DNA of 64,000 bases from Stigmatella ashevillena (lineage in GTDB: Bacteria > Myxococcota > Myxococcia > Myxococcales > Myxococcaceae), in NCBI RefSeq assembly GCF_028368975.1, contig NZ_JAQNDM010000002.1, positions 2,366,007 to 2,430,006 on the forward strand, written 5' to 3'. The first letter of the stretch is position 1; each line of letters starts with the position of its first letter. A program made the translations under genes and the position numbers. A model generated the notes under the pieces. That model had not been told where the DNA came from, made no database searches, and saw only the letters and a program-made list of their open reading frames with translations. Positions 43,716 through 52,727 of this stretch are shown here, piece after piece.

Positions 43716-46346
43716 ATGCGACTCGACAAATACACGGTGAAGGCGCAGGAGGCGATCCATGAGGGTCAGGCCCTGGCCCGTCGTGCGGACAATCCCAGCT
43801 ATGAGCCCGAGCACCTGGCGGCCGCGCTCCTCGAGCAGAAAGACGGCATCGTCGAGCCCGTTCTCCGGAAGATCGGTGCGGACTCGAAGCTGTTCGCGTC
43901 ACGGTTGGCCGAGGCGCTCGGAAAGATTCCCCGCATGCAAGGGGGCGAGAGCGCCCTGCTCAGCCAGCGCATCCTGAAGACCTTCGACAAAGCCGAGGAC
44001 GAGGCCAAGGGGCTCAAGGATGAGTTCATCTCCTCCGAGCACCTGCTGCTGGCCCTGACCCATGACAAGGGCACGGTGGGCGAGGTGCTCAAGTCCTCTG
44101 GCGTCACGCGCGACCGCGTGCTGTCGGGCCTCAAGGACGTGCGCGGCTCGGCCCGGGTGACCAGCCAGGACGCGGAGTCCACCTACCAGGCGCTGGAGAA
44201 GTATGGCCGGGATCTGACGAGCTCGGCCCGCTCGGGCAAGCTCGATCCAGTCATCGGCCGGGACGAGGAGATCCGCCGCTGCATCCAGGTGCTCAGCCGC
44301 CGCACCAAGAACAACCCGGTGCTCATCGGCGAGCCCGGCGTGGGCAAGACGGCCATCGCCGAGGGCCTGGCGCGGCGCATCGTCGATGGCGACGTGCCCG
44401 AGAGCTTGAAGAACAAGCGGCTCATCACCTTGGACCTGGGCTCGATGGTGGCCGGTGCGAAGTACCGCGGCGAATTCGAGGAGCGCCTCAAGGCGGTGCT
44501 CAAGGAAGTCGCCGACGCGGCCGGAGAGATCATCCTGTTCATCGACGAGATGCACACCCTGGTAGGCGCGGGCAAGGCCGAAGGCTCGATGGATGCGGGC
44601 AACATGCTCAAGCCGGCGCTGGCGCGGGGCGAGCTGCACTGCATCGGCGCCACCACGCTGGACGAGTACCGCAAGCACATCGAAAAGGACGCGGCCCTGG
44701 AGCGGCGCTTCCAGCCGGTCATGGTGGGCGAGCCCTCGGTGCACGACACCATCAGCATCCTGCGCGGTCTGAAGGAGCGGTACGAGGTGCACCACGGCGT
44801 GCGCATCCAGGATCAAGCCCTGGTGGCTGCCGCCAACCTCTCCCACCGCTACATCGCCGACCGGTTCCTGCCCGACAAGGCGATCGATCTGGTGGACGAG
44901 GCCTCCAGCCGCCTGCGCATCGAGATCGACTCGATGCCCACGGAGATTGACGACATCCGGCGGAAGATGACCCAGTTGGAGATCGAACGTCAGGGCCTGA
45001 AGAAGGAGACGGACCCGCACTCCCAAGAGCGCTTGGGCCAGATCGAAAAGGACCTGGCCAACTTCAGCGAGCGCTTCACCTCGCTCAAGGCGCACTGGGA
45101 CGCGGAGAAGTCGGCCATCACGAGCATCCGCGAGCTGAAGGAGAAGCTGGAGAAGGCCAAGAACGATCAGGCCTCGGCCGAGCGCCAGGGAGACCTGAAC
45201 CGCGCGGCCGAGCTGAAGTTCGGCGTCCTGCCCTCGCTGGAGAAGGAGGTGGCGGCGCAGAACGCGAAGCTGGCCGAGCTCCAGAAGAGCCAGAAGTTCC
45301 TCAAGGAAGAGGTGGATTCGGAGGACATCGCGGAAGTGGTGGCCAAGTGGACGCACATTCCGGTGTCCAGGCTCCTGGAGGGCGAAGTCCAGAAGCTGGT
45401 GAAGATGGAGGACCGGCTGTCCAACCGGGTGATTGGCCAGCGCAGCGCCATCGAGGCGGTGTCCAACGCGGTGCGCCGCGCGCGCAGCGGGTTGCAGGAC
45501 CCCAACCGGCCCATCGGCTCATTCATCTTCCTGGGCCCCACGGGCGTGGGAAAGACCGAGGCGGCCAAGGCCCTGGCCGAGTTCCTCTTCGATGACGACA
45601 CCTCGATGATCCGCATCGACATGTCCGAGTACATGGAGAAGCACTCCGTGGCCCGGCTCGTCGGCGCCCCTCCGGGTTACGTGGGCTACGACGAGGGCGG
45701 TCAACTCACCGAGGCGGTGCGGCGGCGGCCCTACTCCGTCATCCTGTTCGACGAAATCGAGAAGGCGCACCACGATGTCTTCAACATCCTGTTGCAGATC
45801 CTCGACGAGGGCCGACTGACGGACAGCCAGGGGCGCACGGTGGACTTCAAGAACACAGTGCTCATCCTCACCTCCAACATCGGCTCCCAGGCCCTCCAGG
45901 AGGGCATGGCGGGCAAGGAGACGCTGGACGAGCGGACGCGGAGCGAGGTGATGGACGCGCTGCGCGGCCACTTCCGGCCCGAGTTCCTCAACCGCGTGGA
46001 CGAGATCGTCCTCTTCGAGCCGCTCAAGCGCTCGGAGATCCACCGCATCGTCGACCTTCAGTTGGCGCGGCTCCAGAAGCTGCTGACAGACAAGCGGCTG
46101 ACGTTGGAGCTGACGGACGCGGCCCGGAACTTCCTGGGCGAGCGGGGGTATGACCCGACCTACGGCGCCCGGCCCCTGAAGCGGGTCATCCAGAAGCACC
46201 TGATGGACCCGCTGGCGCTGAAGGTGCTGGGAGGCGAGTTCCTGCCGGGAGACAACATCCAGGCGGATCTCTCGGGAGAGGGGCTCTCCTTCGGCAAGGT
46301 GCTGGTGGACACGACCCGCGAGGACAAAGCCTCCCGGTCCGCCTGA
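43716..46346 (+). CDS. clpB: ATP-dependent disaggregase ClpB
   Basis: The hexameric AAA+ chaperone that pulls proteins from aggregates together with DnaK. The 876-residue protein has the N-domain (about residues 1-145), NBD1 with Walker [14 protein letters not shown] and Walker [15 protein letters not shown], the long coiled-coil middle domain that defines ClpB (about 400-530), NBD2 with [27 protein letters not shown] and the [13 protein letters not shown] sensor 2. The ATG at 43716 matches the usual N-terminus. The only purine-rich stretch (AAGGG) ends 1 base before it, so initiation may not depend on a ribosome site. It converges on the sigma factor gene with a perfect hairpin between. Confidence 0.96.
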
Positions 46347-46368: not shown

Positions 46369-46403
46369 GGACGTAGGACGTGGCGAGGGCCCGTCCTACG
46401 TCC
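46369..46403. terminator. Bidirectional terminator-like hairpin between clpB and the sigma factor gene
   Basis: GGACGTAGGACG at 46369-46380 pairs perfectly with CGTCCTACGTCC at 46392-46403 around an 11-base loop. It overlaps the stop of the convergent sigma factor gene and lies 22 bases after clpB. A pyrimidine-rich stretch follows on the plus strand. Confidence 0.7.
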
Positions 46404-47310
46404 CTCCCCCTTCCTCCAACACCTGGCTGAGCCCCACGTCGATCTGGCTTTCGATGTCGGCCAGGAGACTCTCGAACTCGCGCGAAGACAACCGGAGCCG
46501 CTCTTGCAGGCGGCTCTTGGTCCCCTCGTACACGATTTGCCGGGCGCTTTTGATCCAGCGCGAAATCGTCGATTGGTTGACCCGGAAGAGCGGTCCCATC
46601 TCGATGGTCGACAGGCGATCGATGAAATGCAGGCGCAGCAAGTGCCGCTGATCGTCCGACAACGACGTGAAGGCATCTCTCACGGCCAGACGAAATTCCT
46701 TGCGGTAGCGCCGCTTGATGAGGTCGATCTCGGCATTCGAGCTGGGCTCGGCGAGGGCCTCGATGAGCGTCAGCACGTTCTCCTCGGGTGCCTCCCGGCC
46801 CACGCCTCCTTGCTTGAGGGCCATGCGCACCGCGATGACCCGGATCCAGCTCAGCAAGGCACCGCGGCCTGTGTACTCCGCGAGCCGGGGCCTCGATTCG
46901 GCCGTCCCCACCAGGAGGTGGATGCGGACGATCTGGCACACATCATCCAGGATCTGCTCCGGCAGCCGGAGGTACGCCAGCGCATGAGGCAGCTTGCCCA
47001 GGTAATGCTGCTCCAACGCCTCAATGGCTCCTGCCACGCCATTCACACAGGCACAGGCGATGAAGAGGTCTGCCAGCACCAGGTGCTCGAGTAAGCGCTC
47101 GAGCGGCCCCTCCACCTCCTCGCTGGAAATCCTCATCGACAGATGACGGACGAAGACAGTCGCCGACAAATCCACGCCCGGCCACGCCGCGCATGCGTTG
47201 TCCCAAGCACGCCTCAACACTGCCTCAAGCCCAGCCATGTCATCGACGGCGGCGGTACGAACTGGGGCATTCTTGAGGAATGTTGTGGCGAGAGTGAACG
47301 GCTCCACCAT
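46396..47310 (-). CDS. Atypical RNA polymerase sigma factor (sigma-70 family)
   Basis: A 304-residue protein I read as a divergent sigma-70-family factor. The middle holds a region-2-like segment (LPEQILDDVCQIVRIHLLVG, GRGALLSWIRVIAVRMALK), where SWIRVIAVR matches the region 2.3/2.4 pattern of ECF-like factors. The C-terminal part holds region 4: LSDDQRHLLRLHFIDRLSTI followed by the helix-turn-helix LFRVNQSTISRWIKSARQ. The first 110 residues are an extra helical domain, longer than in standard ECF factors. ATG at 47310 is used, with AGGA about 9 bases upstream. It is divergent from a kinase that starts with an anti-sigma-like zinc finger. I infer that the two form a regulator-target pair. Confidence 0.8.
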   Translation of the reverse strand: MVEPFTLATTFLKNAPVRTAAVDDMAGLEAVLRRAWDNACAAWPGVDLSATVFVRHLSMRISSEEVEGPLERLLEHLVLADLFIACACVNGVAGAIEALEQHYLGKLPHALAYLRLPEQILDDVCQIVRIHLLVGTAESRPRLAEYTGRGALLSWIRVIAVRMALKQGGVGREAPEENVLTLIEALAEPSSNAEIDLIKRRYRKEFRLAVRDAFTSLSDDQRHLLRLHFIDRLSTIEMGPLFRVNQSTISRWIKSARQIVYEGTKSRLQERLRLSSREFESLLADIESQIDVGLSQVLEEGGGT

Positions 47311-47337
47311 GTGTTCCAATCCTACCCGTGTGATTCC

Positions 47338-47343
47338 ATTGTA
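47338..47343 (-). promoter_or_regulatory. Candidate -10 element for the sigma factor gene
   Basis: On the minus strand these bases read TACAAT, 5 of 6 to the sigma-70 -10 consensus, about 28 bases before the ATG at 47310. No good -35 hexamer is visible at 16-18 bases, so an alternative sigma factor may be involved. Confidence 0.3.
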
Positions 47344-47453
47344 CCCACCACCTTGACGGGTGGACATGGGATGGTGTCGTCTTTGGCCGCTGCCACCTGT
47401 TGCCCATCTAGCATGGGCCAAGCCAACAAGCAGATTTGCACCTTGGGCCACTC

Positions 47454-50400
47454 ATGCCGCATAACGCTGGCTCGGCGGAGCCGCGCTGTCTGACCGATGA
47501 ACTCCTCGCGGAGCTGATTGATGGGCGGCTCCTACCGGAGGAACTCTCCCGCGTCCATCACCATGCCGCGACGTGTCCGGAATGCCATGCATTGCTGGTC
47601 ACGGTCCTTCGAGGGGGAGTACAGCAAGACCCTGCGAGCCCCAAGACCCTTGCGTCCACAGGCTCCCTTCCCGCCTCTCCGGAGAAGGCCTGGGTCCCTC
47701 CTGATGCGTTCGATGAGTTCCGCCTCTTGCGGCTGCTCGGCCGCGGGGCCATGGGCATCGTCTACCTCGCGCACGACACCTCCCTGGACAGAGAGGTCGC
47801 GGTCAAGTTCATCGCCTCGCACCAACCCAACGCACGGGCCTTGGCGCACTTCCAGATCGAGGTGCGTGCCATCGCGCGGGTGCAACACCCAAACGTTGTC
47901 ACTGCCTTCCGGGTGGGAACGGTAGCGGGCCGCCCCTACCTCGTCTCCGAATACCTGGCCGGACAGAGCCTGGCGGACATGCCGTTGCCGATGCCCTGGC
48001 GGCGCGCACGGGCCATGGGCCTTGGAATGGCCCGCGGCCTCGCGGCGGCCCACCGCCAGGGCGTGCTCCACCGCGATCTCAAACCGGCCAATGTGCTTCT
48101 CTCGTCCGGCGGAGAGGTGAAACTGCTCGACTTTGGTCTGGCCGAGCTCGTCGATGGGGACACGGGTGACGGCGCACCCGGAGCGCGCTCCACGGCCGGC
48201 ACACCGAGATACATGGCGCCCGAGCTCTTTCGGGGCCAACTGGCAACCCCCCAGAGCGATCTCTACTCTTTGGGCCTCGTCCTTTACGAACTCTGCACAG
48301 GAACGCTCCCGCCCCATCGCCATGCACTGCGCCTGATCAAGAAGGGGCAGCCCGAGCCCCTGCCCCCGGAAGAGCCTGTCAAGAGCAGCCCTCCTCTCCT
48401 GACAGAGCAGGTACCGGGCATTGACCTCGATTTTGCCTCGCTGATCGAACGCTGTCTTCGCTCCGACCCTGCGGAACGTTTCGCCTCCGCGGAAGCACTT
48501 CGCCTCGAATTGGAGCGTCTCGGACAGCCCTTTGACACGGAGAGCATTCCTGAAGCCAGCCCCTACCAGGGACTGGCTTCCTTTGAAGCCGAGCACCGCG
48601 CGCTCTTCTTTGGCCGCGACGCCGATATCCGCGCCGTGCTCGACCGCCTGCGACGGCAACCCCTGGTTCTCATCGCGGGGGACTCGGGCGTTGGCAAGTC
48701 TTCCCTGTGCCGGGCAGGCATTCTTCCCCGCGTCGCCCAAGGCGCATTGGATGACTACCGCGACTTTCGTCCCCTGACCTTGACGCCGGGGCGCCTGCCT
48801 CTCACGGTCCTCGCCGCCACGCTGGCGCCGGTCCTCCAGCGGACCGAAACCGAACTCTTGGAGCGGCTCACTGGAGAACCGGGGTGGCTGGGCGCCACCC
48901 TCCGCGCCACGTACCAAGAAGGACGTGGCTTGCTCGTGTTCGTCGATCAACTCGAAGAACTCGTCACCCAGAGCGAACCGGCCCAGGCCCTCCGTTTTGC
49001 GGAGCTTCTCAACGAACTGACCCTGCCAGCGCCGGGCGTGCGCGTGCTGCTCACGGTTCGCGGCGACTTTCTCACTCGGATTGGGGCACTGCCCGGCCTG
49101 GACGCGGCCATCGAACGCTCGCTGTACCTGCTGCAACACCTCAAGCCCGAGGGAATCCGCGAAGCCATTGTCGGCCCTGCTCGGAGCCAGGGCGTGAGCT
49201 TCGAATCAGAGACGCTTCTCCAGACCCTCATCGACCAGACGTCCCAGGGAGCAGGCAGCTTACCCCTTCTCCAGTTCACGCTGACCGAACTGTGGGAGCG
49301 CCGCGACACCTCCCGGGCGTGCATTACCCAAGCTTCGCTGGAAGCCATGGGGGGCGTGGTGGGGGCGCTTTCCCGGCATGCAGATCAGGTGCTGGCCCGG
49401 CTCAAACGCATTGAACAGCAAGCGGCCCGCCGTCTTCTGGGACGTCTCATCACGCCGGAAGGCACACGCGCCGAACAAAGCGAAGAAGAACTCACGGAAG
49501 ATTCCCCGGAGGCGCGCACCGCGCTCCAGGTGCTCATCGAGGGCCGTCTGCTTCATGCACGCACCACGGAGGGGGACACTCACTACGAAATCGCGCACGA
49601 GGCGCTGATCTCCAACTGGAGCACTTTGCGACGCTGGCTCAACGAGGACGCAGCCCAGCGGATGCTCAGGCAGCGTCTCGAAGTAGCCAGTGCCGAATGG
49701 GAGCGTGCCCACCGCGCCCGGGATCTCCTGTGGCGTGCAAGCCAACTCAAGGAAGCCCATGCCATGGACATTCACCGATTGAGAGACCGTGAAAAGAACT
49801 TCCTCCATGCTTCGAGGCAGGCGGCGCTCCGCCACCGCAGACTCCTCGTGCTTGCCACGATCCTGTTGGTGCTCGCGGCAGCGGGACTCTACGCAGGGCC
49901 ACGTCTGATAGAGCACCAAGACAGGCAACGAGCCGTTCAGGCCTTGCTGGAAAATGCCTCGACAGCGCTCCAGGAGGGAAAGGTTTCCGCTCAGCAGGCC
50001 CTCACCCGCCGGGAAGAGGCCATCGCGCTGTTCGATGGCCAATCTCCCTGTCCCGATACACAGCCATGTCCCCTCGGGACCCTTCTCCCCACGGACCGGA
50101 AAAACCTAGCAGAAACCGGATGGGAACACGCACGCAATGCGTTCAAACAGGCCAATCTCCGCTTCGCGGCTTCGGAGCAAAAGATTGAAGACGCTCTTGA
50201 ACTCTCCACTCAGCATCTCGCTGCGCGCAAGCTTCTCGTTGAGACCACTTATGAGCGCCTCAAACTCGCCGAGCGCTTCTATGTCCGGGATGAGCGCGCC
50301 CGGCTCACCGAGAAATTCAAAAAACTGACCTCTGGCGATCTTCTCTTGCGAAAACCGCTTGAATCTCCCGCCACACTGGAGCTTCAGACAACGCCGCCGG

Positions 50401-51464
50401 GGGCTACCGTTGAGCTTGCCTTCGTCGGCGAGACTTCAGAAGAGCCTCGGCCTGTCTCTGCCAAACCCAGCGACTATCGCACCCTCGGCACAACCCCTCT
50501 TTCGCCGTTGGCCCTGCCGCCGGGCTCTTATCATCTCCGCATCACGGCAGAAGGCAGAGAAACGGTCTATCTGCCCCTGTGGCTCGAACGGAACGAGCAC
50601 GAGCGGCTCCAACTGACGCTTCCAACCGTTGTTCCAAAGGGCTACGCCTACATTCCTCCCGGCTGCTTTTTCATGGGAAGTGCTGACATTGAAGCCCTGC
50701 GCTCGTTCGTCGAGAGCGCTCCCATCTACCGAAAGTGCCTTACCGATGGATTCTTCATTGGAAAGCACGAGGTGACCTTCCGCGATTGGCTGGAATATCT
50801 GGAGGCAAAGGGCCCAAAGGCTCCAGAACGCCGCATCCTTGAGAAGCCTCTCTTCAATGAGAGCAGTGCCCTGTCCTTACGGAAACTGCGCAATGGCCGA
50901 TGGGAGTTCTCTTTCTATCGGAAAGACGGTGAAGTCCTGACTGCTCTGAACGAGGACATGTTCCGGTACTCAACCCGTAAAAAGAATGAAAGCCAGGATT
51001 GGCGTCAATTTCCCCTGGCAGGCGTCTCTGCAAATGACATCCAGGGTTATCTCGATTGGCTCGACCGCTCGGGCAGGCTGAAAGGTGCGCGGCTGTGCAA
51101 TGAGCTGGAATGGGTTCGCGCAGCCCGTGGAGCCGATGATCGGCGATTCCCACACGGAAACGAGTTCGCATCCGCTGACGCCAACATTGATAAAACTTAC
51201 GGCCGCCAAGTGGGTTCTTACGGACCTGACGCGGTCGGGTTACACCCCAACTCTGCCAGCTTTTGGGGTCTTCACGACATGGCAGGCAATGTTTTCGAAA
51301 TCGTTCGTTCCATGGATTCTCAGAGCACCGACCTCCTGCTGAAAGGTAGCGCCTGGTACTACCCGGAGGCCGGTGCATTGGTCGCGGCACGCCAGCCCAT
51401 CCCGCCCAATCAAGGGGACACACGGATCGGCGTGAGGGTGTGTGCTTCCCTGCTTGCTCCTTGA
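47454..51464 (+). CDS. Zinc finger/Ser-Thr kinase/STAND NTPase/FGE-like hybrid membrane protein
   Basis: A 1336-residue multidomain protein. Domains in order: an anti-sigma-type zinc finger (about residues 13-50, HHHAATCPECH); a complete Hanks-type kinase (about 87-355; GRGAMG, Lys118, HRDLKPAN with Asp208, DFG at 226-228, APE); a STAND-type NTPase (about 370-780; P-loop GDSGVGKSS at 409-417, LLVFVDQLEELV as Walker B); a membrane span (about 796-815, LLVLATILLVLAAAGLYAG); a helical region; a PEGA-like segment (LELQTTPPGATVEL); and a formylglycine-generating-enzyme/SUMF1-like domain (about 1060-1336; YIPPGCFFMGS, GKHEVTF, ARLCNELEWVRAARG, LHDMAGNVFEIV). The FGE domain should be outside the membrane and the kinase and NTPase inside. 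ATG at 47454; TTG at 47436 is possible. Base composition, especially in the last third, is less G+C-rich than flanking genes, which suggests acquisition. Confidence 0.87.
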   Translation: MPHNAGSAEPRCLTDELLAELIDGRLLPEELSRVHHHAATCPECHALLVTVLRGGVQQDPASPKTLASTGSLPASPEKAWVPPDAFDEFRLLRLLGRGAMGIVYLAHDTSLDREVAVKFIASHQPNARALAHFQIEVRAIARVQHPNVVTAFRVGTVAGRPYLVSEYLAGQSLADMPLPMPWRRARAMGLGMARGLAAAHRQGVLHRDLKPANVLLSSGGEVKLLDFGLAELVDGDTGDGAPGARSTAGTPRYMAPELFRGQLATPQSDLYSLGLVLYELCTGTLPPHRHALRLIKKGQPEPLPPEEPVKSSPPLLTEQVPGIDLDFASLIERCLRSDPAERFASAEALRLELERLGQPFDTESIPEASPYQGLASFEAEHRALFFGRDADIRAVLDRLRRQPLVLIAGDSGVGKSSLCRAGILPRVAQGALDDYRDFRPLTLTPGRLPLTVLAATLAPVLQRTETELLERLTGEPGWLGATLRATYQEGRGLLVFVDQLEELVTQSEPAQALRFAELLNELTLPAPGVRVLLTVRGDFLTRIGALPGLDAAIERSLYLLQHLKPEGIREAIVGPARSQGVSFESETLLQTLIDQTSQGAGSLPLLQFTLTELWERRDTSRACITQASLEAMGGVVGALSRHADQVLARLKRIEQQAARRLLGRLITPEGTRAEQSEEELTEDSPEARTALQVLIEGRLLHARTTEGDTHYEIAHEALISNWSTLRRWLNEDAAQRMLRQRLEVASAEWERAHRARDLLWRASQLKEAHAMDIHRLRDREKNFLHASRQAALRHRRLLVLATILLVLAAAGLYAGPRLIEHQDRQRAVQALLENASTALQEGKVSAQQALTRREEAIALFDGQSPCPDTQPCPLGTLLPTDRKNLAETGWEHARNAFKQANLRFAASEQKIEDALELSTQHLAARKLLVETTYERLKLAERFYVRDERARLTEKFKKLTSGDLLLRKPLESPATLELQTTPPGATVELAFVGETSEEPRPVSAKPSDYRTLGTTPLSPLALPPGSYHLRITAEGRETVYLPLWLERNEHERLQLTLPTVVPKGYAYIPPGCFFMGSADIEALRSFVESAPIYRKCLTDGFFIGKHEVTFRDWLEYLEAKGPKAPERRILEKPLFNESSALSLRKLRNGRWEFSFYRKDGEVLTALNEDMFRYSTRKKNESQDWRQFPLAGVSANDIQGYLDWLDRSGRLKGARLCNELEWVRAARGADDRRFPHGNEFASADANIDKTYGRQVGSYGPDAVGLHPNSASFWGLHDMAGNVFEIVRSMDSQSTDLLLKGSAWYYPEAGALVAARQPIPPNQGDTRIGVRVCASLLAP

Positions 51465-51659
51465 GGGAGGACTGAACCGAGAGCCTTGTCGTTCTGCCTG
51501 CTGAGAAGGAAGTGGATGACTCGGGTGCTGGATCTCCCTGCATAGGTTGGCCTGTTCGCGCCTCTTCTCTGTGCAGTACCAGACATCACGAGCCGCTGCC
51601 CTGGAGGGGTCCCCAGTCAGGGCAGCGGTCCTTCTCCTCTCAGTAAAGCGCGAACTCCC

Positions 51660-52727
51660 ATGAAAAGACTGCTCTCGGTTTTTGTCTGTCTTTTGGTCAA
51701 TTCGATGTCATTGGCTTCCGAGCCCAGACAGGACCCCACACGCGCCGCCCCTGAGAGGCTCGGCATCCCTCCCCGGGTGGCCCCCTGCAAGGGACTCCAG
51801 GATCCACAGCGCATCAGCTGGCCCCAGGGAACGATGCTGTGGGGAACGACAAGACAAGCTGGGGCAAACGAGAAGAGCAGTGTTCTGGCAGCCGTCGCGC
51901 TGGATCGCGTGACGCTGGGGGGAGCGCCCCTCAAAGATGTCCGTCTCGAGAAAGGCCACTTGGAGGCTCCAAACCTTCCCTCCGAGAACCTCGCAGGCGC
52001 CATCTTTCACGGAACGGCCAGCGATGGCAGCCCAGTGGAGGTCGCGGTCTGTGACGCCGAGCCTTCTCCTCAGGATCCGTCGATGCACTGGTACCGCATC
52101 GAGATCTGGGACAAGCAGAAAGAGTCCTGGGAGAACCCTTGCATCGCGACCCAGCGGGCGCCCAATCCCAAGGCGGTTGCCGTGCAGGGCCTGTGGAATG
52201 AGCAGGGCTCGCGCCACGAGGAGCCAGGAAAATTCACCTTTGCCTGCGAGAACGGCGCCATCGCCAAGTGCATTCACTGGGGCTACAAGCCCTGGGCCAC
52301 GAAGGATGGACAGCCGCTGACGGAGGTGCACCAAGCCTGTACGCGAATGGCCCGGGCCGACTATTGCGGCGACGGGCGGAGCCATACCCGCAAGGACAAT
52401 GTCATCGACATGTATGACACCTTAGGCATCCAGGCCCGGACGACCCAGACCTCCGCGAGTTGGGCACCCGAAAAAGCTTCATTCGAGGCAGCTTGGACTC
52501 CCGAGGGCGCTTCGTGCCTGGCACGCACCCGGGACGGGCAAGAAGCCCAGACGATCTTGAAGGAGTGCCCCAAGCGCTTTGAAGCGGGAGCGAAGGATCT
52601 CGGCGAGGGGGACCGCTGCAGCGTTCGCCTCAAAGGCACCCGCGCCGAGAAGACCCTGCTGAGAAACCACGCCTATGGGCAGACTCCCCGGGGCACCATC
52701 ACCGTGAACATGAAACACGGCCAATAA
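51660..52727 (+). CDS. Secreted ADYC-motif protein
   Basis: A 355-residue protein with a signal peptide (MKRLLSVFVCLLVNSMSLAS). The motif MARADYCGDGRSHT around residue 230 defines what is called the ADYC domain, found mainly in myxobacterial secreted proteins of unknown function; that naming is from memory. Paired cysteines (for example CENGAIAKCIHWGYKPW and ACTRMARADYC) suggest disulfides. Before it lie a beta-rich region (TMLWGTTRQAG, GAPLKDVRLEKGHL) and after it a segment with YDTLGIQART. ATG at 51660 follows a 195-bp gap after the hybrid kinase, where no other gene is seen. I infer it belongs to the same cassette as the sigma factor and hybrid kinase. Confidence 0.8.
   Translation: MKRLLSVFVCLLVNSMSLASEPRQDPTRAAPERLGIPPRVAPCKGLQDPQRISWPQGTMLWGTTRQAGANEKSSVLAAVALDRVTLGGAPLKDVRLEKGHLEAPNLPSENLAGAIFHGTASDGSPVEVAVCDAEPSPQDPSMHWYRIEIWDKQKESWENPCIATQRAPNPKAVAVQGLWNEQGSRHEEPGKFTFACENGAIAKCIHWGYKPWATKDGQPLTEVHQACTRMARADYCGDGRSHTRKDNVIDMYDTLGIQARTTQTSASWAPEKASFEAAWTPEGASCLARTRDGQEAQTILKECPKRFEAGAKDLGEGDRCSVRLKGTRAEKTLLRNHAYGQTPRGTITVNMKHGQ

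Follow-up and report, generated by a model that had tools for sequence, protein, structure and literature searches.

A putative receptor kinase of Stigmatella ashevillena with a conserved ADYC neighbour and clade-specific regulatory genes

Introduction

Why do a sigma factor, a large kinase-containing membrane protein, and a secreted protein of the ADYC family share one small locus in a myxobacterium? This question is raised by three genes of Stigmatella ashevillena (genome size of 10.95 Mb), which were analysed within a window of 64,000 nucleotides (contig NZ_JAQNDM010000002.1, positions 2,366,007 to 2,430,006). A preliminary description of the same DNA suggested that the hybrid membrane protein, on sensing an outside signal, could release or phosphorylate the sigma factor and so turn on secreted effectors, the ADYC protein among them. 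On balance, we favour the explanation that the locus encodes a constant receptor, composed of an FGE-type ectodomain with its ADYC partner, a STAND switch, and a kinase, to which an exchangeable transcription output is connected.

Locus organization

The trio occupies positions 46396-52727, flanked by a clpB-like gene (43716-46346) on the left and, from 53309 onward, by a cluster of arg genes; all three genes are found within the 6.3 kb originally assigned to them. The hairpins said to bound the trio correspond to inverted repeats on both sides. A perfect 12-bp repeat (46369-46380/46392-46403) is located between the 3′ ends of the clpB and sigma genes and overlaps the sigma stop codon, and a 10-bp (90%) repeat (52738-52747/52753-52762) lies 3′ of the ADYC gene. 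The site between a ClpB gene and a gene for a 149-aa protein is common to relatives (L056, and L052 as judged by gene length), and the complete trio is present in Archangium, Hyalangium, Corallococcus, Pyxidicoccus, and Myxococcus. Third-position GC is 0.69-0.76 for the trio genes, compared to about 0.92 for the clpB and arg genes. In Corallococcus relatives, the trio is adjoined by a 1685-aa protein (L096:1464-6521), in which no Pfam family was detected at E ≤ 0.01.

Domain architecture of the hybrid kinase

The hybrid protein of 1336 aa is encoded on the forward strand (47454..51464) by an open reading frame with an ATG start, and Pfam searches together with hydropathy analysis place the zinc finger, Hanks kinase, STAND NTPase, membrane span, and FGE domain first read from the sequence in this single chain. 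The N-terminal zf-HC2 anti-sigma-type zinc finger (47496..47588; PF13490), whose zinc ligands are C12, H37, C41, and C44, scores only at the Pfam cut-off (22.3 vs 22.2 bits). It is followed by a Hanks Ser/Thr kinase (47721..48503; PF00069, 163.8 bits, E 7e-48) with HRDLKPAN, DFG, and APE motifs and by an nSTAND1 NTPase (48561..49721; PF20703, 344.8 bits, E 1e-102). In an alignment of 25 hybrids, the catalytic motifs of the kinase are intact, and the Walker A (GDSGVGKSS) and Walker B (DQLEEL) motifs are invariant or nearly so.

One strong hydrophobic segment (centred on residues ~797-815; Kyte-Doolittle maximum of 2.4 over 19 residues), preceded by the positive-inside flank RHRR, is assigned to a single transmembrane helix (49842..49898), which is also a helix in the structure model. 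This helix is predicted to place the FGE-type domain on the outer side of the membrane, in agreement with the position first suggested for it. The predicted extracytoplasmic part begins with a fast-evolving helical stalk termed 'MID' (49899..50351), which shows the largest domain distance inside the hybrid. It continues with a PEGA domain (50478..50624; PF08308) scoring just above the Pfam cut-off (21.5 vs 20.8 bits), which was absent from the initial domain list, and ends with the FGE-type C-lectin-fold domain (50649..51461; PF03781, 74.4 bits, E 1.5e-20). In an AlphaFold model of the ectodomain (pLDDT 87.8), the stalk is long and helical and the C-terminal domain adopts an FGE fold, which Foldseek matches to ToxD, PvdO, EgtB, and the Treponema variable protein TvpA. 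The catalytic cysteine pair of FGE, whose columns were placed by the motif GGSWxCxxxxCR, is absent at these columns in all 25 aligned hybrids. A catalytic role of the domain is therefore unlikely, and its assignment as an enzyme was rejected; it is presumed to be a ligand sensor.

Two separate gene pairings across genomes

A comparison of domain order and neighbourhood across myxobacterial genomes revealed strong conservation, but in the form of two distinct pairings. The ectodomain occurs in 73 of 179 Myxococcota genomes, with up to seven copies each. When lists of ectodomains and ADYC genes were drawn up independently for 58 Myxococcota genomes, an ADYC gene was found within 3.7 kb of 27 of the 29 ectodomains, 21 of which are without sigma. 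As for the two exceptions, one ectodomain has its start 377 bases away from the end of its contig (G037), and the other is on a contig where no ADYC gene was found (G043). A sigma gene of the gmx1 type lies within 3 kb of only six of the 29 ectodomains. In the S. ashevillena genome itself, all seven kinase-STAND-FGE proteins adjoin an ADYC gene, and each of the four gmx1 sigma genes is located beside a zinc finger-kinase gene. ADYC was found neither at STAND-kinases without FGE (L045, L046, and L121) nor at gmx1/zinc finger-kinase loci without FGE.

The partner of the sigma gene became apparent from a larger collection, 70 FGE hybrids without duplicates, of which 36 have the zinc finger and 34 lack it. 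This set is not unbiased, since ADYC or sigma genes served as the entry point to many of its loci. A divergent sigma gene is present within about 330 bp of 34 of the 36 finger-bearing hybrids and of none of the 34 finger-less ones (Fisher p 6e-18, with kinship ignored), and L055 and L061 keep the finger with no adjacent sigma gene. The C-H-x3-C-x2-C ligand set is complete in 35 of the 36 fingers. The HHxxxCxxC-type finger pointed out at the beginning has all four zinc ligands, and the presence of a finger coincides almost perfectly with that of a sigma gene. In a tree of the kinase and STAND domains, the finger was gained once and lost once, and the pair that lost it (L062 and L068) lacks the sigma gene too. 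From the side of the sigma factor, a zinc finger-kinase is encoded within 3 kb at 43 of 46 gmx1 loci, most of which are without STAND or FGE. The gene association is far beyond chance, and the separate pairing counts indicate that the sigma gene accompanies the finger and that ADYC accompanies the ectodomain. Mirror-tree analysis, in which the rows are related, agrees weakly with these modules; sigma distances give their best partial correlations, which are modest, with the kinase (0.42) and the zinc finger (0.28), and ADYC distances give theirs, which are weak, with STAND and the stalk.

A hybrid and an ADYC gene nested beside those of Myxococcus xanthus (support 100) are also present on a contig (L171) recorded as Comamonas sp. 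KCTC 72670, and this record is probably mislabelled or contaminated.

Exchangeable regulatory neighbours

In hybrids without the zinc finger, another regulator is encoded directly upstream on the same strand, with gaps mostly from -3 to about 115 bp, and the kind of regulator changes by clade. Leaving out L076 and L191, the upstream gene encodes a receiver domain in 18 of 20 members of one clade (L182 having a receiver-GGDEF protein), an FHA-sigma54 activator in 7/7 members of another, and a GAF-sigma54 activator in all four scanned members of a five-member clade. A small GTPase gene is found at both L062 and L068, and a sigma54 activator gene precedes the hybrid of L197. Most of the upstream neighbours are signalling or transcription outputs. 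FHA domains bind phospho-threonine, and the FHA neighbours therefore fit an active kinase with the neighbouring protein as its partner.

Two of these loci have further genes nearby. In M. xanthus (L198:9800-16471), genes for HlyD, an AcrB-type RND efflux protein, and a GH77 glucanotransferase lie behind the receiver-type hybrid/ADYC pair, and a gene for a TPR-CHAT protease comes after ADYC in a copy without finger and sigma (L062:8162-11944).

Sigma factor and divergent control region

The gene described as sigma-like, which is transcribed divergently from the hybrid gene, encodes a real sigma factor of 304 aa (46396..47310, reverse strand, with ATG at 47310). Its score against NCBIfam TIGR03001 (Sig-70_gmx1) is 320.7 bits, compared to a cut-off of 154.6, with model positions 1-244 of 244 covered, and the superfamily model TIGR02937 gives 55.9 bits. 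The acidic σ2.2 motif has the consensus 'DEVxQ' among 76 sigma factors and reads 'DDVCQ' in the window copy.

The intergenic region between the sigma and hybrid genes (47311..47453) was aligned in four species. It contains a 33-nt non-coding block, CCTTGACGGGTGGACATGGGATGGTGTCGTCTT (47351..47383), which is identical at 33/33 positions in the four species and can be recognised in a paralogue. L065/L130 show 26/33 matches at the corresponding site, and there were no chance matches. The block is probably a shared or bidirectional control element. The sequence TTGACG-N19-CGTCTT in this region is nearly the same on either strand, so that a bidirectional promoter is possible.

Proposed mechanism

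In the receptor reading that we prefer, the FGE-type domain, PEGA domain, and stalk would be located outside the cytoplasmic membrane alongside the secreted ADYC protein, and the ectodomain could be altered by a ligand or by a change in ADYC. The single transmembrane helix would relay this alteration to the nSTAND1 NTPase, whose change in nucleotide and oligomeric state might activate or inactivate the Hanks kinase joined to it. For the window copy, the N-terminal zinc finger would act as an anti-sigma factor and keep the TIGR03001 sigma factor tethered to the membrane, and receptor activation would lead to sigma release, perhaps with phosphorylation of the finger or the sigma factor. In the finger-less copies, the gene for the same core lies immediately behind one for a receiver protein, for a sigma54 activator of the FHA or GAF type, or for a small GTPase. 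Whether these proteins are an unnamed receptor family, with a C-lectin-fold sensor, an obligate secreted ADYC co-receptor, a STAND-controlled Ser/Thr kinase, and swapped outputs, is in our judgment evenly balanced. If this is true, a STAND switch serves ordinary gene control across a membrane, beyond cell death, and the copies with different outputs provide a natural series on the rewiring of a receptor to sigma factors, sigma54 activators, and receivers. For dozens of orphan kinases in myxobacteria, the arrangement would also predict which outputs are cognate to them.

Among the alternatives, the one that survives best is that the kinase activates the sigma factor by phosphorylation, as PknT does EcfP of ECF43, with the finger serving as a docking site only; we consider it unlikely, though still to be taken seriously. 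The kinase motifs are of the active type, the pairing of a sigma factor with a kinase is a hallmark of ECF43-type systems (PMC8999054), and the FHA and receiver proteins found at the equivalent place are suited as phosphorylated partners. The gmx1 locus resembles the EcfP/PknT and EcfK/PknS pairs (PMC8999054, PMC13147305) in that the sigma gene lies beside a Hanks kinase gene. However, ECF43 factors are without the acidic σ2.2 motif, which is replaced by uncharged Ser/Thr residues, and gmx1 factors retain it as 'DEVxQ', the consensus of 76 sigma factors. Because the acidic motif is kept, the ECF43 route, in which charge is restored by phosphorylation (PMC8999054), is not required. Moreover, the gmx1-associated kinase, unlike those of the ECF43 pairs, bears an anti-sigma-type finger, and the finger paired with the sigma factor has the full zinc motif.

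Class I anti-sigma factors (ASDI/ZAS, zf-HC2; PMC7406223) share with the window protein an Hx3Cx2C finger, membrane anchoring, and a position beside a sigma gene. In contrast to them, the window finger is fused to kinase, STAND, and FGE domains, and no evident counterpart of the σ2-binding helix 4 of class I proteins is seen in the linker behind it, which looks low-complexity. The same sigma-finger pairing is found at two further gmx1 loci of the genome (L036 and L037), where the zinc finger-kinases have TPR repeats in place of STAND-FGE and ADYC is absent.

ADYC protein

The third gene (51660..52727, forward strand) encodes a protein of 355 aa with a signal-peptide-like N terminus, which matches PF20032 with 188.1 bits (E 2e-55; gathering cut-off of 27 bits) and has its ADYC motif at 52356-52367, in keeping with the secreted ADYC-motif protein initially recognised. 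It shares with other proteins of this family the motif, the conserved cysteines, and the secretion signal, and differs from them in being tied to a receptor. The structure model is confident (pLDDT 84.5), and no PDB match was found for it at E ≤ 0.001. Bacterial agglutinins were rejected as fold relatives since their best match (Z 3.5 over 67 residues) is too weak, and pentapeptide-repeat-like PDB matches in a profile search, confined to the N-terminal region, were not taken as homology. The term 'ADYC domain' was absent from the literature searched, a corpus of 5.39 million papers.

That the ADYC protein is a sigma-controlled effector, as proposed in the preliminary description, now appears improbable. 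The genes are adjacent, the ADYC protein is predicted to be secreted, and ECF-type sigma factors often control neighbouring genes. Nevertheless, ADYC is kept beside the FGE hybrid in 34/34 loci that have neither finger nor sigma, and it is missing from the gmx1/zinc finger-kinase loci that lack FGE, so that it seems to belong to the receptor as a partner. The upstream regions speak against common control as well. A de novo search for promoter motifs upstream of the sigma, hybrid, and ADYC genes gave none common to all and none shared between sigma/hybrid and ADYC; a TTGA-N17-21-CTAGC pattern precedes eight hybrids and no ADYC gene. No second copy of the 33-nt block was found within the window, and the block thus gives no evidence of ADYC control. 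The orientation of the ADYC gene varies among loci, and it is therefore not always co-transcribed. As a putative secreted partner of a receptor kinase, the ADYC family gains a testable context. ADYC genes without a kinase hybrid are found in cyanobacteria, Mesorhizobium, and Azospirillum (L156-L176, L179, and L200-L202).

Relation to known systems

The fusion was at first thought to be undescribed, which holds for only part of it. STAND-FGS proteins with N-terminal Ser/Thr kinases have been described and proposed as counter-invader systems (PMC8195603), whereas the addition of the zinc finger and sigma factor was not found in the literature searched, nor were the ADYC pairing and output swapping; an earlier mention of a zinc finger-kinase/sigma pair is possible. 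The hybrid resembles STAND NTPase-FGS proteins (nSTAND1 or NACHT, with kinase or EAD N-termini; PMC8195603, PMC7159879) in the order of effector or kinase, STAND, and C-terminal FGE. It resembles the nSTAND1-FGE sensors that are targets of DGRs elsewhere (PMC10907252) in having STAND followed by a C-terminal FGE C-lectin fold. In contrast to both, the window hybrid has one transmembrane helix, an extracytoplasmic stalk-PEGA-FGE part, and a zinc finger, and its locus has an obligate ADYC neighbour and transcription outputs, with no reverse transcriptase nearby.

These resemblances bring up a conflict or death system, in which an intracellular FGS sensor of invaders would cause STAND assembly and kinase-driven suicide (cf. 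PMC8195603). We give this little credence. It would account for the identical kinase-STAND-FGS order in that work, the several paralogues per genome, and the CHAT protease gene near L062, and the kinase part is matched by PADLOC kinase models. However, this match concerns the kinase domain alone, as would be the case for most Hanks kinases, and no PADLOC model matches the sigma factor or ADYC. The transmembrane helix is predicted to place FGE outside, the neighbours are transcription regulators rather than nucleases or TIR proteins, no reverse transcriptase is encoded nearby, and the window copy stays between the ClpB gene and the 149-aa gene in relatives. Common descent of the cluster with no functional dependence, which the relatedness of the loci and a Fisher test blind to kinship would allow, is very improbable, as the pairing survives varied gene orientations and genome positions, finger and sigma are lost together, and the output gene is replaced by clade.

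Diversification by a DGR was rejected for the window locus, since the nearest of four reverse transcriptase genes in the genome lies about 0.8 Mb away. Two of the reverse transcriptases (G000:C2:765553-766173 and 1614691-1615311) have the same score and the same frame length (462 aa) and are perhaps copies of one mobile element.
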